Assembly (NCBI GenBank): GCA_016933955.1
Contig: JAFGTT010000007.1
Location: 1-61,895 of the forward strand
Direction of reading: 5' to 3'
Origin: Candidatus Zixiibacteriota bacterium
GTDB taxonomy: Bacteria > Zixibacteria > MSB-5A5 > GN15 > PGXB01
DNA length: 61,895 bases
Part shown: positions 46,924 to 58,935 of the stretch, piece by piece
How the letters are laid out: every line of letters starts with the position of its first letter
Numbering within the stretch: the stretch's first letter is position 1
The notes under the pieces: generated by a model
Databases searched by the model: none
Told to the model about the DNA's origin: nothing
Seen by the model: only the letters and a program-made list of their open reading frames with translations
Position numbers and translations under genes: made by a program

Positions 46924-48144
46924 ATGTCAAAACTAATTTCTCCACACGGAAGTGATAAGTTGAAGATCTTGCTTCTTGAAGGCAAAGAGCGCGATCAAGA
47001 ACTCAAGAAAGCTGAATCGCTTCCCAAGGTTGTCATGACTTCTCGCGAAACCGGCGATTTAATCATGATGGGGATCGGCGGTTTTACGCCGCTGGAAGGT
47101 TTCATGGGACAGGCTGACTGGAAAAGCGTGTGCGCCGACATGAAACTGACTAATGGCGTTTTCTGGCCGATTCCGGTTACTCTTTCTCATGACCAGAAGG
47201 TTGCTCCGGGTACGGAGATATGTTTGATCTCCGGTGAAACCAATGAAATCATGGGCACCATGAAGGTGACCGAGTCCTACCAGATCGACAAGGAATTCGA
47301 GTGCAAACATGTTTACACGACCACGGATATGGAACATCCCGGTGTGCAGATGGTCATGAAACAGAAAGCCTGGAATCTGGCCGGACCGGTCAAGGTTCTT
47401 TCCGAAAGCTACTTTCCCAAGGAATTCGCGGGTATCTACCAGCGCCCGGCCGAAAGCCGCAAGATTTTCGAAGAGAAGGGCTGGACCACGATTGCCGCCC
47501 TGCAGCTGCGGAATCCGATGCATCGCTCTCATGAATACCTGGCCAAGATTGCGGTGGAAGTCAGCGACGGCATTTATATCCACCAGCTCGTCGGGAAACT
47601 GAAACCCGGTGATATTCCTGCTGAAGTCCGGGTCAAGTGCATCAACACCCTGGTGGAAAATTACTTCGATAAAAATCGTGTAGTTACCGGTGGTTATCCT
47701 CTGGATATGCGTTATGCCGGGCCACGGGAAGGTCTCCTGCATGCCGTTTTCCGTCAGAATTTCGGTTGCACCCATATGATTATCGGGCGCGATCATGCCG
47801 GTGTCGGTGATTACTATGGTCCTTTCGATGCCCAGCAGATATTTTTCAAACTCTGGGATGGTGCTCTGAAATGCAAGATGCTGCCGATTGACTGGACTTT
47901 CTGGTGCTACAAATGCGGCGGGATGGCCTCAATGAAGACCTGTCCTCACGGCAAAGAAGACCGTCTTTTCCTCTCCGGCACGGCGCTACGCAAGGCTCTC
48001 TCCGAGGGCGGCGAGGTTCCGTCCGAATTCAGTCGTCCCGAAGTCCTGGCCATTTTACGCGAGTATTATGCCAGCCTTAAGGATGAAGATAAGGTCGAAG
48101 TCAAGATGCACGGTCATGCTACCGGCGATGCCAAAAAGAAATAG
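46924..48144 (+). CDS. sat: Sulfate adenylyltransferase (ATP sulfurylase)
   Basis: 406 residues. It activates sulfate with ATP to adenosine-5'-phosphosulfate. Active-site motifs: [14 protein letters not shown] (about 195-208) with the HxxH-type pair, and [17 protein letters not shown] (about 285-301). The zinc-site type [17 protein letters not shown] is seen in sulfate-reducer enzymes and is followed by [12 protein letters not shown]. It is the homo-oligomeric dissimilatory type, without an APS kinase domain. aprB follows after 57 nt in the common sat-aprBA order. Confidence 0.96.
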
Positions 48145-48201
48145 GAAAAAATCAAACGTTTAATTGGCTTTTTTGGATAAACGTAAGTTTAGGAGGTATT
48201 A

Positions 48202-48642
48202 ATGCCAAGTTTTGTGAACCCGGAAAAGTGCGATGGGTGCAAGGCACTGGATAAAACTGCCTGTCAGCACATTTGTCCGAACGACCTGATGGTCCTCGAC
48301 AAAGCAAAGATGAAGGCCTACAATCAGGAGCCGGAGATGTGCTGGGAATGTTACAGTTGCGTCAAGATTTGCCCGACCCAGGCCATCGAAATCCGCGGCT
48401 ACGCCGACTTTGTCCCTATGAATGCTTCGGTAACGCCGATGCGTTCGACCGACAGCATCATGTGGACGGTCAAATTCCGCAACGGAATGCTGAAACGGTT
48501 TAAATTCCCGATTCGTACCACCGAAGAGGGTAAGGCTCAGCCGTCCGGTGGTTTTGCCACCGCTCACGCTGATCTGAACAGCCCGATTCTGGCTCAGGAG
48601 CCGGAGGCCCTGAAACTGTCGGAAGTTTATACCATCAAGTAA
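48202..48642 (+). CDS. aprB: APS reductase beta subunit
   Basis: 146 residues. An N-terminal two-cluster ferredoxin (CDGCKALDKTACQHICPND and CWECYSCVKICPTQAIE, about 9-70) is followed by the AprB tail that wraps around AprA. It passes electrons to the AprA flavin. A perfect AGGAGGT site lies before ATG 48202. Length is typical for the family (about 150). Confidence 0.96.
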   Translation: MPSFVNPEKCDGCKALDKTACQHICPNDLMVLDKAKMKAYNQEPEMCWECYSCVKICPTQAIEIRGYADFVPMNASVTPMRSTDSIMWTVKFRNGMLKRFKFPIRTTEEGKAQPSGGFATAHADLNSPILAQEPEALKLSEVYTIK

Positions 48643-48663
48643 AAATCAGGAGGTTAGTAAGTA

Positions 48664-50586
48664 ATGGCAAAATTCGAAACTGTAGAAGTCACCACTGACC
48701 TGCTGATTCTTGGCGGTGGTATGGCTGCATGCGGTGCGGCCGTCGAGGCTTCTTACTGGGCTAAGAAAAACAATTTGAAGGTTACTCTGGTCGATAAGGC
48801 CGCCATGGATCGCTCCGGCGCTGTGGCGATGGGTCTCTCGGCCATCAACCAGTATGTTGACCTGACCAGCGGTAAGAATACCGTTAAGGATTACGTCGAT
48901 TATGTGCGCATGGATCTGATGGGTATCACCCGCGAGGATCTGGTTGCCAATATCGCCCGCCATGTCGATTCGACCGTGCATCTCTTCGAAAAATGGGGTC
49001 TCCCGATCTGGAAAGATGCCGAGGGCAATTATGTTCATGAAGGTCGCTGGCAGTTGATGATCAACGGTGAATCCTATAAAGTCATCGTGGCCGAAGCCGC
49101 GAAAAACGCTCTAGCGGAAGCCGGCGGCGAGTACTATGAACGAATATTCATCGTTGAGCCGTTGATGGATGGCGATCGCGTCGCCGGTGCCGTTGGTTTC
49201 AGCGTTCGCGAAAACAAATTTTATGTCTTCAAGGCCAAGGCCGTTATCGTTTCGATGGGTGGGGCGGTCCATGTTTTCAAGCCGCGGAGCACCGGTGAAG
49301 GTCTCGGCCGCGCCTGGTATCCGCCGTGGAACTCCGGTTCCTCAGCCTATTTCACCATCCGGGCCGGCGCTGAAATGACCAGCCAGGAAGTCCGTTTTAT
49401 CCCGGTCCGTTTCAAAGATGCTTATGGTCCGGTCGGAGCCTGGTTCCTGCTGTTCAAATCCCGCGCCACCAATGCCATGGACGGAAACTACATGGTCGAG
49501 CGCGTAGGCGAACTCGAAAACTGGAAACCGTACGGGCTGGTGAAACCGATTCCGGCCAACCTCCGTAACTGGCTGGGTATGCTCGATATAATGGAAGGTA
49601 AGGGCCCCATCTATATGAGGACCGAAGAAGCCATCCAGAAGATCGCTTCCGAAGCCGGCGATGAAAAAGCGGCCAAGAAGAAGCTTAAAGAGCTTGAAGC
49701 TGAAGCCTGGGAAGACTTCCTCGATATGACCATTTCGCAGGCCATTCTCTGGGCCGCCACCAATGTCGAGCCCGAGAAGAAATCCTCCGAAATCGCCGCC
49801 GCCGAACCATACTTCATCGGTTCCCACTCCGGTGCCTCCGGCGCCTGGGTCAGCGGTCCGGAAGATCTACAGACCGGTGAAACCAAGAGTGAATATTTCT
49901 GGGGTTATGCCCATATGGCCACCGTTAAGGGAATGTTCTGTGCCGGGGATGCCTCCGGGGCCTCCTCGCACAAATTCTCGTCCGGTTCCCATGCCGAAGG
50001 TCGTATTGTCGGTAAAGCGGCCATTAAATTCATCGTCGATAACAACAATCATGCCAAAGTCGATCAGGCTGAAGTGGATGCTCTCAGAGAGAGGCTTCTC
50101 AAGCCGATCGACAATTTCGAAGCCCACAAGAACGCTTCCACCGATCCGACTGTCAATCCTAATTACATTCTGCCGAAGATGTTCATGTTTCGTCTGCAGA
50201 AGATTATGGATGAGTATGTCGGTGGTGTTTCGGCCCAGTTCTCGACCAACAAAGCTCAGCTCAGCCGCGCCCTGGAATTGCTCGGCTTCCTTCAGGAAGA
50301 CTCCGAGAAGCTGGCGGCCCGGGATCTGCATGAACTGATGCGTTGCTGGGAGAATGTCCAGCGCATGTGGCAGGCCGAGGCTCATGCCCGCACCATCCTG
50401 TTCCGTGAAGAAACCCGCTGGCCCGGTTACTACTTCCGTGCCGACTATCCGAAACTGGATGACAAGAAGTGGCATGTCTTCGCCAACTGTCGCTGGGACC
50501 GCGACAAACACGAGTGGGAAATGATCAAACGCCCGATGCTCCATGTTTATCCCCAGGCTAAGGAGCATGAATTGCTTGGCGGTTGA
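48664..50586 (+). CDS. aprA: APS reductase alpha subunit
   Basis: 640 residues. A flavoprotein of the fumarate-reductase type that reduces APS to sulfite and AMP. The FAD-binding start is LILGGGMAACGAAVEASYWA (about 15-34). GAVAMGLSAINQYVD and the substrate-site regions MTSQEVRFIPVRFKDAYGPV, FCAGDASGASSHKFSSGSHA and the C-terminal ETRWPGYYFRADYPK are characteristic. AGGAGG precedes the start. A strong terminator follows the gene. Confidence 0.97.
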   Translation: MAKFETVEVTTDLLILGGGMAACGAAVEASYWAKKNNLKVTLVDKAAMDRSGAVAMGLSAINQYVDLTSGKNTVKDYVDYVRMDLMGITREDLVANIARHVDSTVHLFEKWGLPIWKDAEGNYVHEGRWQLMINGESYKVIVAEAAKNALAEAGGEYYERIFIVEPLMDGDRVAGAVGFSVRENKFYVFKAKAVIVSMGGAVHVFKPRSTGEGLGRAWYPPWNSGSSAYFTIRAGAEMTSQEVRFIPVRFKDAYGPVGAWFLLFKSRATNAMDGNYMVERVGELENWKPYGLVKPIPANLRNWLGMLDIMEGKGPIYMRTEEAIQKIASEAGDEKAAKKKLKELEAEAWEDFLDMTISQAILWAATNVEPEKKSSEIAAAEPYFIGSHSGASGAWVSGPEDLQTGETKSEYFWGYAHMATVKGMFCAGDASGASSHKFSSGSHAEGRIVGKAAIKFIVDNNNHAKVDQAEVDALRERLLKPIDNFEAHKNASTDPTVNPNYILPKMFMFRLQKIMDEYVGGVSAQFSTNKAQLSRALELLGFLQEDSEKLAARDLHELMRCWENVQRMWQAEAHARTILFREETRWPGYYFRADYPKLDDKKWHVFANCRWDRDKHEWEMIKRPMLHVYPQAKEHELLGG

Positions 50587-53025: not shown

Positions 53026-53084
53026 TGTGTATTAACCCTTTAACCATTTACCACCGTTATTCAAGTACCTAAGGAGGTGAGAGA

Positions 53085-53210
53085 ATGATTTATCTGGTGG
53101 ATCCGGAAACTGCTGTTAAGCAGAAATGCATTCCGTTTGTCTGCACAGCGTTCTGCAAGCCGGGCAATGTCTATTACCCAATGTATGGCATTGACCCGCT
53201 GGAAGCTTAA
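53085..53210 (+). CDS. Precursor peptide of a radical SAM-modified RiPP (41 residues)
   Basis: ATG 53085 is preceded by the consensus site AAGGAGGTGA with 4-nt spacing, strong evidence of high translation. The product starts MIYLVDPETAVKQK, then Cys15, Cys20 and Cys24 (C-IPFV-C-TAF-C), and ends in a Tyr- and Pro-rich tail (NVYYPMYGIDPLEA). There is no double-glycine leader, no hydrophobic signal and no TPP or lanthionine-type Ser/Thr-rich core. Three modification enzymes and an exporter follow in one operon. A short, Cys-bearing peptide before SPASM radical SAM enzymes suggests thioether (ranthipeptide/sactipeptide-like) or other carbon-centred crosslinks. I recognise no named precursor family; a peptide-derived cofactor is the alternative. 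Confidence 0.72.
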   Translation: MIYLVDPETAVKQKCIPFVCTAFCKPGNVYYPMYGIDPLEA

Positions 53211-53229
53211 GTAAGAACGAAATCAGAAT

Positions 53230-53252
53230 GGGAGGGGTTTTTAACCCCTCCC
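53230..53252 (+). promoter_or_regulatory. Hairpin between the precursor and first maturase gene
   Basis: GGGAGGGGTT (53230-53239) pairs perfectly with AACCCCTCCC (53243-53252) around a TTT loop. It starts 19 nt after the precursor stop. No T-run follows, so it may act as a partial attenuator or as a 3' stabiliser of the precursor mRNA. Confidence 0.7.
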
Positions 53253-53287
53253 GTATAATGGCAACAAATAACCGGCAGTGTGATTTT

Positions 53288-54640
53288 ATGGCTAAGTTTT
53301 CAAGATATAATCATTTTCAACCCTGGAAGGACGGTAATTATATCGCCTACAACGCCCGAACCGGGGCCATTGCACTGATGACCGAGGAAAATTATCGGGT
53401 CTATCGAAATATGTATGAGAAACTATCTCGGAATCCTGTCACCGATCCGGATCCGGAAGAAAAGGAATTGGCGGAGCAATTGAAATATGGCGGATTTCTT
53501 CTAAATAATGATGGCGATGAATTGGACCAGCTTGAATTCCGGCACTTATTAAACCGCTATGACCGCACTTCGCTGGGGCTGATTGTCGCCCCGACCATGG
53601 CCTGTAATATGGCCTGCAAGTATTGCTTCGAATCCGATAAAAGGGGCCGCATGTCTACCGAAACGATTGAGGCTCTGCTTCAGTTTATCGAAAAACAGGC
53701 TCGAAATCTTGATTTTGTAGATATTGCCTGGTATGGCGGCGAGCCGCTTTTGGCTTTGAATATAATCGAGGATATAACCGAGTCGGTACTGGATCTGGCC
53801 CGAGAATATAAAGTCCGTTATGCCTCATCGATGATTACCAATGGCTATCTCCTGACCCCGGAAAATGTTGATAAACTGGTAAAACTTCGCGTTTCCAGTT
53901 TGCAGATCACACTTGACGGTCCGCGCCGGGTGCATGATGAAAACCGGCCCCTCAAAAATGGCCGAGGATCTTACGACACCATTCTGCAAAATATTAAATA
54001 CGCCTCAACCAAGCTGGCGGTCGGGCTGAGAGTGAATATTGACAAGAATTTCAACGGGCAGGTTTTGTCGGAATTGCTTGAAGAATTGAATGATAACGGT
54101 CTTCGGGATAAAATCGGCCTTTACTTCGGGATGCTGGAACCGTGGTCCAATGTCTGCGTCAATATCGCCGAAGGCTGTTATAGCAGTCTTGAATTTTCGA
54201 AGGCAGAAATCGAATATTACCGTTTGCTTCATGAGGAAGGTTTCAGTATTGAAAAACTTCCCATGCCGATCTCAGTTGCCTGCCTGACTCAGAATGTCAA
54301 TTGCTTTATTGTCGATGCCGACGGTGATTTATATAAATGTTTCTGTCAGGTCGGAGACAAAAAACTGAGTTTCGGCAATATCCGTAATGAAATCGATTAT
54401 GATCACCCCAATTTCAGGCGCATTTTCGGACTCAATCCTTTCAAGGATGAAATGTGCCAATCATGCGATATTCTGCCTATCTGTATGGGTGGTTGCCCGG
54501 CTCGCCGGGTTGATCGAAATCTGAGCGGTGAACAATTGTGCGAATCCTGGCGGCATAATCTCCCCCAGATGCTGGAGATAATAGCCCTATCCAAACAACA
54601 GCAGAAAAAACAAAAAACAGCTGAGATAAAGGAGTCATAA
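53288..54640 (+). CDS. SPASM radical SAM peptide maturase 1
   Basis: 450 residues. The N-terminal about 95 residues (SRYNHFQPWKDGNYIAYNAR, then LKYGGFLLNNDGDELD) look like the winged-helix RRE-type domain that grips leader peptides. The radical SAM cluster Cys106, Cys110, Cys113 lie in TMACNMACKYCFE, with WYGGEPLL for SAM. The C-terminal SPASM domain binds auxiliary clusters: CLTQNVNCFIVDADGDLYKC, CFCQVGDK, FGNIRNE, CQSCDILPICMGGCPARR. It probably forms thioether or other crosslinks on the precursor. ATG 53288 is preferred; ATG 53258 is possible; ATG 53228 would place the hairpin inside the gene. It ends 3 nt before the next maturase. Confidence 0.85.
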   Translation: MAKFSRYNHFQPWKDGNYIAYNARTGAIALMTEENYRVYRNMYEKLSRNPVTDPDPEEKELAEQLKYGGFLLNNDGDELDQLEFRHLLNRYDRTSLGLIVAPTMACNMACKYCFESDKRGRMSTETIEALLQFIEKQARNLDFVDIAWYGGEPLLALNIIEDITESVLDLAREYKVRYASSMITNGYLLTPENVDKLVKLRVSSLQITLDGPRRVHDENRPLKNGRGSYDTILQNIKYASTKLAVGLRVNIDKNFNGQVLSELLEELNDNGLRDKIGLYFGMLEPWSNVCVNIAEGCYSSLEFSKAEIEYYRLLHEEGFSIEKLPMPISVACLTQNVNCFIVDADGDLYKCFCQVGDKKLSFGNIRNEIDYDHPNFRRIFGLNPFKDEMCQSCDILPICMGGCPARRVDRNLSGEQLCESWRHNLPQMLEIIALSKQQQKKQKTAEIKES

Positions 54641-54643
54641 ACC

Positions 54644-55750
54644 ATGAGCGATTTCGAATTTATTCCCCGGGCCGTGGTCTGGGAAATTACCTTCGCCTGT
54701 AATATGAACTGCATCCATTGCGGTACCGCGGCGGGAAAGAAACGAGAGAATGAGTTGACCACCGAAGAAGCGATGCATCTTATCGACGAACTGGCTGATC
54801 TGGGAGCGACCCAGATTACCCTGTCCGGTGGGGAACCGATGTTAAGAAAAGATTGGCGGGAGCTGGCGCGAAAAGTCAAATCCCGCGGCGTCCAGTGCCT
54901 GTTGATAACCAATGGCTATATTGTCACCCAGGAAATAGTCAATGATTTCGCGGCTTTGAAAATTGATCGGGTCGGGGTCAGTCTCGATGGCATGCAGGAA
55001 ACGCATGACAAAATCCGACGCCGCAAAAACAGCTGGGAGAGGGCGATCAATGCCCTTAAAATGATCTGCGATAACGGGACCATCGCGCATACTGCCGTCA
55101 GCAGTATTTCAACTCTGAATTTCCATGAACTCGATCAAATTCGTGATAAACTCCTTGAAATCGGCTGTAAACGATGGCGGATACAGATGGTGACCGGGAC
55201 AGGTCGGATGCAGGAGAGCAAAAATGAGGTCATGACCGTCGAAATGCTGCCCCGCTTTATCGACAAGTTGATCGAATACAAAAAGGACAATCGAATTCAT
55301 ATCAGTGTCGGCGAGAATATCGGCTATTTTGGCTGTCGCGGCACTGAATTGTGGGATGATATGCCCTATTTCGGATGTTTCGCCGGAACCCGGATTGCCG
55401 GGGTCGAATCCGATGGCACGGTCAAGGGTTGTCTCTCGATGCCGGAAGACTTCGTGGAAGGCAATATCCGCGATTCCTCATTTAAAGATATCTGGAATAA
55501 TCCCGAGGGCTTCGCTTACAATCGCCAATTTACCCGGGAAACAGCCGATGGGGAATGCCATGATTGCCGGTACCTGCCGCTTTGTCGGGGTGGGTGTACT
55601 ACGACTTCCTTTGCGGCCACCGGAAGCCGGGCCAATAATCCGTACTGCATTTACCGGATCGAGAAAAAACAGGGCATTAAACCGCGGGAGACCCAATTGA
55701 TTCGGGATATTCTTGCTGATTTTGAACCGGTCGAAGCGGCCGCGGATTAG
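54644..55750 (+). CDS. SPASM radical SAM peptide maturase 2
   Basis: 368 residues. Cys19, Cys23 and Cys26 in TFACNMNCIHCG coordinate the SAM cluster at the very N-terminus, with no leader-binding domain before them. TLSGGEPMLRKDW follows. The SPASM region carries GCFAGTRIAGVESDGTVKGC, EGNIRDSSFKDIW, CHDCRYLPLCRGGCTTT and the last Cys in NNPYCIYR. It likely acts on the same peptide after or together with maturase 1, perhaps depending on that enzyme's RRE. AAGGAG precedes ATG 54644. Two distinct SPASM enzymes in one operon imply at least two kinds of modification. Confidence 0.85.
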   Translation: MSDFEFIPRAVVWEITFACNMNCIHCGTAAGKKRENELTTEEAMHLIDELADLGATQITLSGGEPMLRKDWRELARKVKSRGVQCLLITNGYIVTQEIVNDFAALKIDRVGVSLDGMQETHDKIRRRKNSWERAINALKMICDNGTIAHTAVSSISTLNFHELDQIRDKLLEIGCKRWRIQMVTGTGRMQESKNEVMTVEMLPRFIDKLIEYKKDNRIHISVGENIGYFGCRGTELWDDMPYFGCFAGTRIAGVESDGTVKGCLSMPEDFVEGNIRDSSFKDIWNNPEGFAYNRQFTRETADGECHDCRYLPLCRGGCTTTSFAATGSRANNPYCIYRIEKKQGIKPRETQLIRDILADFEPVEAAAD

Positions 55751-55769: not shown

Positions 55770-57224
55770 GTGATAGCCGGAAAAAAACCATCCATCCTGA
55801 TGGTCTATCCGTCCTGCTTTTATTATCCCAATTATATGAGCAGGTTGGAGTTGAAGACCTCACAGTTGCTTCTGGCCTCGTATTTGGCCCGATATTTCCC
55901 GGTTGAGTATGCTGATTTTGAAATTAGTATCGGTCGAGCCAATTCCGAGCTTCAGGTTAAAAGGTACACCCGTCAGGTAAGGAAATTTTTGGAGGAACGG
56001 GAATTTGACATCCTGGCCATATCCTGCTGGACCAGTTTATCTTATCAGGCCACCCTGGTTACCGCCCGAATCTGCCGGGAGTTATATCCGGATCGACTGA
56101 TTGTCGTCGGGGGTTATCATCCCTCGGCCCGGCCGCAGGACTTTATCACCGATGATAAAGTCGTGGACTATGTATTACTGGGCGAGGGCGAGTTAACACT
56201 GAAGGATATTGCGGACGATTTTGGCCATTCCGGCCGCCCCGCCGGGACCGTTATTGCTCCCTGCAAAACCTTGCCCGGGGAGCAATTCGTTGATTACGAT
56301 TGGACCCTGCTGGATGGATTTGTCAGCACTCACTTCCCCGATGGTATTCCGAGTCTGTACCTTTATTTATCCCGTGGCTGCCCCTTCGGATGTACTTTCT
56401 GCATGGAACCCCTTAAAGAACGCAAATGGCGGGCCTATCCTCCCGAAACGGCAATAAATATTCTCCAGACCGCGGCTAATCGGTTTAAAGCCTATTCCAT
56501 TGCCATTTCCGATGCCTGTTTCGGCATGAGAACCTCATGGCGAAAAGAATTTCTGAAACTACTGGAGAAACTCAAGCCCGAATACTGGTTGATTTTTGAA
56601 ACCCGGCCGGAGTATCTTGATGCCGAAGATATCAAGATGTTATGCGGTCTTAAGGTCGAAGTGCAATTCGGAATCGAAAGCGGCAGTGCCGATATGTTGT
56701 CATTGATGAAAAAAACCAGACAACCGCGCCGGTTTCTTGACAGGTTCAGCGATATCAGCCGGATGCTCTCCGAGCATGATATCCTCCATCGCGCCAACCT
56801 GATATTCAACCATCCCGGAGAAACCAGGCAAACACTTCGGGAAACGTTCGATTTTATAGATCATGAACTGGAACGCCGGGATAGTACCCTTATCTGGGCC
56901 CCGCATGGCTATATGCATTTCCCGGGATGCGAACTTGATCGCAACATGGAATTCTATTGCGATAAATTCGGCAGTCGTTTTATCAGCACCGACTGGTGGA
57001 AAGGAACGACCGACCAGTATGAAAACAGCCTGAAATTCATCCCATCCACGGACCTGGAGGGTAATGACACGGATATGTGGCGTCGGATGATTGCCGAGCG
57101 CGAAGAGAAATTCAAAACCACGCTCTCTCCCCGGGCTTTCCGGTTTGCCGCCAACAAATATCGCCAGGATTGGAAAAATGACGCTCGATACGAAGAAAGT
57201 AAAAAGGCTCTGGGACTATCTTAG
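55770..57224 (+). CDS. B12-binding-domain radical SAM enzyme
   Basis: 484 residues from GTG 55770 (AAGGAAAA upstream). The N-terminal Rossmann-like domain (about 10-160; FDILAISCWTSLSYQATLVT, LIVVGGYHPSARPQDFI, VLLGEGELTLKDI) is the cobalamin-binding type found in class B radical SAM methylases, though no DxHxxG motif is seen. The radical SAM Cys204, Cys208, Cys211 are in SRGCPFGCTFCMEPL. Later blocks EVQFGIESGSADML and FNHPGETRQTLRETFDFID are typical. Expected chemistry is C-methylation of the peptide or another radical rearrangement. Its end overlaps the transporter gene by 47 bases. Confidence 0.82.
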   Translation: MIAGKKPSILMVYPSCFYYPNYMSRLELKTSQLLLASYLARYFPVEYADFEISIGRANSELQVKRYTRQVRKFLEEREFDILAISCWTSLSYQATLVTARICRELYPDRLIVVGGYHPSARPQDFITDDKVVDYVLLGEGELTLKDIADDFGHSGRPAGTVIAPCKTLPGEQFVDYDWTLLDGFVSTHFPDGIPSLYLYLSRGCPFGCTFCMEPLKERKWRAYPPETAINILQTAANRFKAYSIAISDACFGMRTSWRKEFLKLLEKLKPEYWLIFETRPEYLDAEDIKMLCGLKVEVQFGIESGSADMLSLMKKTRQPRRFLDRFSDISRMLSEHDILHRANLIFNHPGETRQTLRETFDFIDHELERRDSTLIWAPHGYMHFPGCELDRNMEFYCDKFGSRFISTDWWKGTTDQYENSLKFIPSTDLEGNDTDMWRRMIAEREEKFKTTLSPRAFRFAANKYRQDWKNDARYEESKKALGLS

Positions 57225-58935
57225 ACCGTACTGGCATTTAGAGCTTCTGACCTTTCTGGTCATGGCAGTCCTGGCCACCCTGGCCCTGGCCTTGCCGGTG
57301 GCTGTTAAATACCTCATCGATGATTTAATACCGGGTCTGATCGCCGGCGCCGACAATGGTATCAGGATCAAACCGGTAGTATATTTCGGATTAGTCCTGG
57401 GCGGGATTTATTTCGCCCAGATTATTTTTTCCTGGGCCCGGGATTATCTGGCCGGATATATCGGAGCCAATATTATCGCCGACCTGCGGTCGCAGTTATT
57501 CGGCCACCTGGAGCGTCTTTCTCTCAAATTTCACCAGTCCCATCAGGTCGGGGAAATCATGTCCCGAACCATTTCCGATGTGAATCGCATCCAGAGTCTG
57601 TTAACCTCGACTTTACTCATTTTTCTGACCAACATTTTCATGCTGACGGCCATTATGGTCTATCTGTTAAGCACCAATTGGATTCTCACTTTGGTTGCCA
57701 TAATTCCCCTTCCGCTTACAATTCTGCTGGCCAACAAATTCGGAATCCGATTGCATCGGATCAGCAAAAAACTCCAGGAAACCATTGCGTCATTTTCCGC
57801 CCGTCTCCAGGAATCACTGGTTTCGATCAAGACCATTAAAGCCTTTGGACAGGAATCAGCCGAACAGAAGAAAATGGATAAAATCCTATCGGGGCTGACG
57901 GCGCTTTATGTTAAAAACAGCGTCACCATTTCACTGTCGGCCAATCTTGTGAATTTCGTCAACATGATCGGGCCGATAGTTGTCCTCTCATGGGGCACCT
58001 ATCTTATTGCCGGGGGAACAATGAAACTGGGAACCCTGATGGCTTTCTATATGCTTCTCTCCTACTTGTACACTCCGGTTCAAAGCCTGGCCTCTTTGCA
58101 CATAGAAATAAAATCAGCCATGGCCTCGGTTGATCGGTTATTCGAATATCTCGATATTCCTCCGGCTGTAATTGAACATAACAATCCGATTATACTGCAA
58201 AAGTCCCGGGGAGCCATTGGCATTGATAGTATAAGGTTCCATTACCAGGACAATGGTTTTGGTCTGGAACATTTTTCTCTTAAAATTGCCGCGAGAGAAA
58301 AAATCGCCGTGGTCGGCCCCTCCGGTTCCGGGAAAACAACCCTTGTTAATCTGATTGCTCGTTTCTATGATCCTGATGCGGGAACAATATCTCTGGATGG
58401 GATTGATATGCGCCGCATATCTCTGGAATCGCTTCGCCGCAATATAACCCTGGTGGATCAGGAACCGTTGTTGTTTAAGACAACGATATTCAATAATATC
58501 GCTTATTCCAATCCCGATCGAAATCCCGATGAAGTGAAAAAGGCGGCCATAGTGGCCAATATTCATGACTTTATTATGAGCCTTCCTGACGGCTATGAAA
58601 CCGAGGTGGGCGAACGAGGGGTGACTATTTCGGGCGGAGAAAAACAACGTATCTGCCTGGCCAGGGCTATTCTGCCCGATCCGGCTATTCTGATTCTCGA
58701 TGAAGCCACTTCCGCTCTCGACTCGCGTTCCGAGGAGTTAATTCAGGAGGCTCTCCAGAATATTCTCAAGGATAAAACCGCCATAATTATAGCGCATCGC
58801 CTCTCGACTATCCAGCACGCCGACCGGATAATAGTCATTGACCGGGGACGTATTATCGACCAGGGAAGTCACGAGGAATTACTGGAAAAATCCCCCCTGT
58901 ATCGTGAACTGGCCAAAAGACAGCTTAAAATATGA
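57178..58935 (+). CDS. ABC exporter (membrane-ATPase fusion) of the peptide operon
   Basis: 585 residues. Six membrane helices (about 20-300) are followed by an ATPase domain with Walker A VVGPSGSGKTTLVNLI (about 377-392), signature TISGGEKQRICLARA and Walker B AILILDEATSALDSR. It is an MsbA/LmrA-like type 1 half-transporter. There is no N-terminal C39 peptidase domain, which fits the lack of a double-glycine site in the precursor, so leader removal would need another protease or not occur. ATG 57178 lies inside the preceding gene; the overlap implies translational coupling. Likely role: export of the modified peptide; self-protection is possible. Confidence 0.88.
   Translation: MTLDTKKVKRLWDYLRPYWHLELLTFLVMAVLATLALALPVAVKYLIDDLIPGLIAGADNGIRIKPVVYFGLVLGGIYFAQIIFSWARDYLAGYIGANIIADLRSQLFGHLERLSLKFHQSHQVGEIMSRTISDVNRIQSLLTSTLLIFLTNIFMLTAIMVYLLSTNWILTLVAIIPLPLTILLANKFGIRLHRISKKLQETIASFSARLQESLVSIKTIKAFGQESAEQKKMDKILSGLTALYVKNSVTISLSANLVNFVNMIGPIVVLSWGTYLIAGGTMKLGTLMAFYMLLSYLYTPVQSLASLHIEIKSAMASVDRLFEYLDIPPAVIEHNNPIILQKSRGAIGIDSIRFHYQDNGFGLEHFSLKIAAREKIAVVGPSGSGKTTLVNLIARFYDPDAGTISLDGIDMRRISLESLRRNITLVDQEPLLFKTTIFNNIAYSNPDRNPDEVKKAAIVANIHDFIMSLPDGYETEVGERGVTISGGEKQRICLARAILPDPAILILDEATSALDSRSEELIQEALQNILKDKTAIIIAHRLSTIQHADRIIVIDRGRIIDQGSHEELLEKSPLYRELAKRQLKI

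Follow-up and report, generated by a model that had tools for sequence, protein, structure and literature searches.

Spliceotides are represented by PlpA2 and PlpA3 and the splicease PlpXY of Pleurocapsa (PMC10533398, PMC11002830). PlpX, a radical SAM enzyme with a SPASM region, cuts tyramine out at Xaa-Tyr-Gly (PMC11002830); its natural sites are MYG and LYG, and tags such as GGPIRPLYGLPI have been tried in other proteins (PMC10533398). The products contain a rare electrophilic backbone group that has been used for protein labelling (PMC10533398) and are considered useful for inhibiting proteases (PMC11002830). Related chemistry occurs in the CteB/PapB ranthipeptide/sactipeptide, Clo7bot (TIGR04334) and TIGR04463 maturases, which combine an RRE with radical SAM and SPASM domains and have a Cys substrate beside the gene, and in the PQQ and mycofactocin pathways, where radical SAM/SPASM enzymes act on Tyr. 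The literature that was searched contained nothing on Zixibacteria RiPPs or DUF1843 precursors.

The window, i.e., the whole 61,895-nucleotide stretch analysed here, carries a gene for a 41-residue peptide followed by two radical SAM/SPASM maturases, maturase 1 (M1) and maturase 2 (M2). As in spliceotides, the precursor core contains an XYG site, here PMYG; Leu or Met at X is common to both systems, the flanks are near-identical (RPLYGLPI against KPLYGVPP), and M2 and PlpX are radical SAM/SPASM enzymes, probably of the same wider clade. In contrast, spliceotide leaders are long Nif11 or nitrile-hydratase sequences, whereas the leader here comprises 7–14 residues on precursors of about 31–48 aa. 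PlpX uses PlpY, whereas no PlpY-like small gene is present in this operon. Unlike spliceotides, the system also has a second, RRE-bearing maturase, a Cys segment and, in some precursors, Cys at position X.

A conserved precursor gene in Zixibacteria

The precursor gene (53085–53210, plus strand) encodes MIYLVDPETAVKQKCIPFVCTAFCKPGNVYYPMYGIDPLEA followed by a stop codon. As the preliminary description had stated, the translation places 14 residues ahead of Cys15, the first of three Cys (Cys15, Cys20 and Cys24), and contains no GG or GA cleavage site. The reading frame is a real gene and not a chance ORF, since it has a strong ribosome-binding site, homologues, and codons under purifying selection. 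The ribosome-binding site, AAGGAGG, lies at 53071–53077 (plus strand), and GGAGG precedes 63 of 70 homologues. A profile built from 26 homologues (alignment A1) and searched in 132 genomes of the phylum Zixibacteria retrieved about 80 homologues in 39 genomes, mostly directly upstream of homologues of both maturases. Seventy peptides, 68 of them unique, were taken from beside maturase clusters, and the genomes hold additional copies at other positions. Between close relatives, pN/pS is 0.13 (0.044/0.349), and one close pair differs by eight synonymous and no non-synonymous changes; purifying selection on the codons is strong.

The preliminary description had called this peptide a precursor whose gene annotation would easily miss, and had held that a lack of codon-level conservation in related genomes would speak against it. 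The codons are conserved, homologues adjoin both maturases, and NCBIfam and Pfam models gave no match to the peptide; these databases miss the entire precursor family, whose genes have only about 40 codons.

Many clusters contain multiple precursors, for example six in locus L036. In the single-contig genome G004, a precursor is located at 2.50 Mb and the M2 genes at 0.67 and 1.43 Mb. Orphan precursors apart from maturase genes were also observed (L164, at 4844; L158–L160, L162, L163 and L165–L167), which suggests modification in trans. The apparent absence of a peptide at L121 and L143 concerns clusters whose upstream sequence is masked. Most of the named relatives carry the label Candidatus Zixiibacteriota. 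A genome scan aimed at finding PlpX matched instead Zixibacteria or related MAGs, one Calditrichaeota-labelled contig and, weakly, Nocardioides. The Calditrichaeota-labelled contig carries a peptide together with M2 (L145, 393–512), an occurrence that may reflect transfer or misbinning.

Leader, Cys segment and PxYG tail

The minimal leader, MIYLVDP (53085–53105, plus strand), has Met1, Leu4 and Pro7 invariant in the 26 sequences of A1, and the family consensus is MIYL[VI][DE]P; the leader is exceptionally short, one of the options raised in the preliminary description. RiPPs with Nif11 or NHLP leaders have long ones, whereas no such leader was found in this precursor, where only 14 residues precede the first Cys and no family matches.

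The Cys segment, CIPFVCTAFC (53127–53156, plus strand), varies across the family in the number and spacing of its Cys residues. All three Cys are invariant in A1, whose seeds were chosen partly for their Cys; the wider set of 68 unique peptides has one to six Cys before YG at variable spacing, with CX3CX3C the most frequent arrangement. The CX4CX3C spacing emphasised in the preliminary description is therefore not conserved, and we rejected it as a fixed family signature.

The predicted splicease site, PMYG, occupies 53178–53189 (plus strand). Pro32 and Tyr34 are invariant in A1 and Gly35 is found in 25 of 26 sequences; in the wider set PxYG is the most constant feature of the core (64/68 unique peptides). 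Position X is Leu in 43 cases, Cys in 12, Met in 10 and Ile in one, with PxYS also counted. The tail has the layout P-X-Y-G-[VIL] and continues to the end of the peptide, 3–10 residues past Gly. A Cys core, a short leader and a Tyr tail had earlier been offered as alternatives; several of them apply at once, and they are not mutually exclusive.

Maturase 1

M1 (53288–54640, plus strand) is a radical SAM/SPASM enzyme with an RRE-like domain at its N-terminus (about 53288–53557), so that, as in ranthipeptide/sactipeptide systems, an RRE-bearing radical SAM/SPASM maturase adjoins a Cys peptide. The predicted structure (pLDDT 79.8) begins with three strands and three helices (EEE-HHH), after which come the radical SAM barrel and the SPASM region, and points to an RRE-like fold of the N-terminus in the model. 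The best fold match is CteB (5WHY), and the Cys ligands are conserved. Nearest among the families are TIGR04334 (Clo7bot) and TIGR04463, although M1 falls below their cut-offs (338 bits against 600 for Clo7bot TIGR04334); the system here further differs from CteB/PapB and these families in its very short leader and in the added splicease-like enzyme. M1 is probably a CteB/Clo7bot-like enzyme that forms Cys thioethers.

Paralogues of M1 (about 30–38% identical) adjoin other Cys peptides with short leaders, and a true M2 is missing there. One of them lies in the same genome (L103, 162–1860 of G000 contig C20:1-8000), with two short-leader, Cys-rich peptides beginning MNWLVKPSDSRDICYKHC and MNWIVSPRNSAIYDNGYC just downstream; this locus has neither M2 nor YG and is another unannotated RiPP system. 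At L104–L113 and L119, short-leader precursors ending KPCPCYxxLFxILPPW, and relatives of these, lie near M1 paralogues, and the partners of this family are an M1 paralogue plus another radical SAM enzyme (M2''), whose identity to M2 is about 28%.

Maturase 2 and its link to the PxYG tail

M2 (54644–55750, plus strand) is a radical SAM/SPASM enzyme with nif11-class peptide maturase 3 and the GDL maturase as relatives. It has no RRE in its predicted structure and is too short for an added one; the RRE-like domain of the system sits on M1. Among the families, TIGR03913 and TIGR04103 match M2 best and clearly outscore PqqE and MftC, although its scores lie far below the NCBIfam cut-offs of these nif11-3/GDL relatives (243.6 against 725 and 256 against 591.75). 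Plasmid records of the annotated nif11-class-3/GDL class served for comparison, and its nearest plasmid relatives are GDL and nif11-class-3 maturases; PlpX, which we take to be annotated as nif11-class maturase 3, was compared by description only. In the tree, M2 groups with the nif11-class-3/GDL enzymes, apart from MftC and PqqE, with some deep forks weak (splicease-type group, 77/78). The motif G[EN]N[IV]GY[YF] is common to M2 and the Nostoc, Azospirillum, Aureibacter and Tropicibacter enzymes and is absent in MftC, PqqE, TIGR04133 and the paralogues. The nearest PDB folds are SkfB, PqqE and SuiB; searches of the PDB by sequence and by fold returned no entry named splicease.

Precursors beside M2 relatives have unrelated leaders and keep XYG-type sites: the Nostoc Nif11 precursor ends SIALYGLPPELF, the Azospirillum DUF1843 precursor contains SVRPYGPAM, and the Aureibacter precursors contain IIQPYGAGI, PMYAAS and VLYAAG. 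The GDL-motif (TIGR03913) maturases with DUF1843 peptides are the nearest named family of M2, and their precursors have Y-G or Y-A sites; in contrast to the system here, the site lies near the N-terminus, Cys is lacking and no M1 is adjacent. At the GDL-type Azospirillum locus, too, no PlpY-like partner is annotated beside the maturase. In an Agathobacter rectalis plasmid (NZ_CP143948.1; L151, 5791–5898), an orphan radical SAM gene belonging to this clade is directly preceded by an unannotated 35-aa peptide ending GPVMYGTGVRM, which may be a spliceotide from the human gut.

To count loci without the profile, we took every small ORF near M1 that encodes Cys and has GGAGG ahead of it. Of 35 loci with M2, 34 had a YG-ending peptide, against none of 15 M1-paralogue loci without M2 (Fisher p = 7e-12, the loci being phylogenetically non-independent). 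The sole exception with M2, L049, has PLYS in place of PLYG, plus an extra M1. The PxYG motif thus depends on the presence of M2. This dependence bears on the idea that the mature core is the Cys segment alone and that the enzymes use the tail as a follower or for recognition, a role that a conserved tail could fill and that would fit the paralogous M1 systems, whose Cys peptides have no PxYG tail. However, the tail follows M2 and not M1, and in the otherwise unrelated precursors of M2 relatives the XYG-type site alone is retained, whether C-terminal or near the N-terminus; we therefore disfavour a purely follower role and consider it very unlikely.

The preliminary description had also raised the Tyr-rich tail as the real core, by analogy with PQQ and mycofactocin. 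The tail is itself a probable target, but the parallel is not supported. A Tyr-derived redox cofactor would be in line with a conserved Tyr near the C-terminus and with radical SAM/SPASM enzymes at the locus, but the Tyr is internal, with Gly-[VIL] and a tail behind it, and the Cys are conserved too. M2 and the pair MftC/PqqE fall on opposite sides of the tree, and M2 scores below both family cut-offs; several different precursors per genome, with varying flanks, also misfit one invariant cofactor, where PQQ and mycofactocin are each a single cofactor. On tree and motif we rejected this reading as highly implausible.

Tyramine excision by M2 is what we predict from these relationships, in the manner of a PlpX-type splicease. 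M2 might instead act at PxYG by other chemistry, e.g., epimerisation, oxidation or a decarboxylation-type cyclisation, and yield no ketoamide. Its branch is a deep one next to the known-type clade, its scores miss the family cut-offs, an invariant Cys231 takes the place of the Pro found in the nif11-3/GDL enzymes, and its operon lacks the PlpY partner. On the other hand, LYG and MYG are precisely the sites spliced by the best-characterised class of relatives (PMC10533398, PMC11002830), X of PxYG is almost always Leu, Met or Cys, and the Gly after Tyr is conserved although it is not obviously needed for simple Tyr chemistry; we consider a non-splicing M2 unlikely. The system resembles a spliceotide crossed with a ranthipeptide/sactipeptide, and we do not assign it to the spliceotides, because PlpY is missing, M2 can be placed with the PlpX class only tentatively (32–37% identity to its nif11-3/GDL relatives, scores below their cut-offs and incomplete tree support), and the product chemistry is a prediction from sequence.

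Operon context

The precursor, M1, M2, B12 radical SAM and ABC exporter genes are all on the plus strand and tightly packed. Between the precursor gene and M1 lies a 12-bp G+C-rich hairpin (53228–53254, plus strand; RNA fold z = −3.2). Strong G+C-rich hairpins directly past the precursor stop recur, with z below −2 at 40 of 71 homologous sites (e.g., L034, L035 and L098), and the hairpin is probably an attenuator or a transcript stabiliser. Downstream of M2, an accessory B12-binding radical SAM protein (55770–57224, plus strand), present in a subset of related clusters, is possibly a methyltransferase. The next gene, whose start overlaps the B12 radical SAM gene, encodes an MsbA-type ABC exporter (57178–58935, plus strand) for which Pfam lists no peptidase domain.

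Just upstream of the cluster, sat- and aprBA-like sulphate metabolism genes occupy 46924–50586, a neighbourhood shared with L044. At 10 of 28 loci (L121, L124, L125, L132, L133, L036, L043, L050, L140 and L144), large PAS-domain sensor kinases are encoded close to the cluster; the window's own cluster has none nearby. Their proximity possibly reflects regulation, or just their abundance.

Proposed pathway and implications

We propose, with a probability of roughly 0.7, that the peptide is a hybrid RiPP precursor that undergoes both Cys cross-linking and tyramine excision at PMYG before export; both reactions, their order, the export and any bioactivity are what we infer from the genes. Splicing taken by itself is slightly more probable than the full scheme. 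In this pathway, the MIYLVDP leader would bind as a β-strand to the RRE at the M1 N-terminus, and M1 would link Cys to neighbouring residues in ranthipeptide/sactipeptide-like thioethers. M2 would excise a tyramine unit at PMYG and leave a reactive β-amino acid, a ketoamide. In part of the clusters the B12 radical SAM enzyme may add an optional modification, perhaps methylation, and the ABC protein would export the product, whose electrophilic ketoamide suggests a protease inhibitor.

More tentatively, at somewhat less than even odds, these peptides may represent a phylum-wide RiPP class: precursors of about 31–48 residues with a seven-residue leader, carrying both Cys cross-links and tyramine splicing, with a splicease that acts without PlpY, its substrate perhaps delivered by the M1 RRE, and with dispersed precursors modified in trans. 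If so, PCYG sites, with Cys at X, would give a Cys-derived keto-β-amino acid. A splice site built into so short a precursor, together with an enzyme that perhaps dispenses with PlpY, would offer a compact tool and, from an uncultured phylum, constrained ketoamide peptides of new origin.
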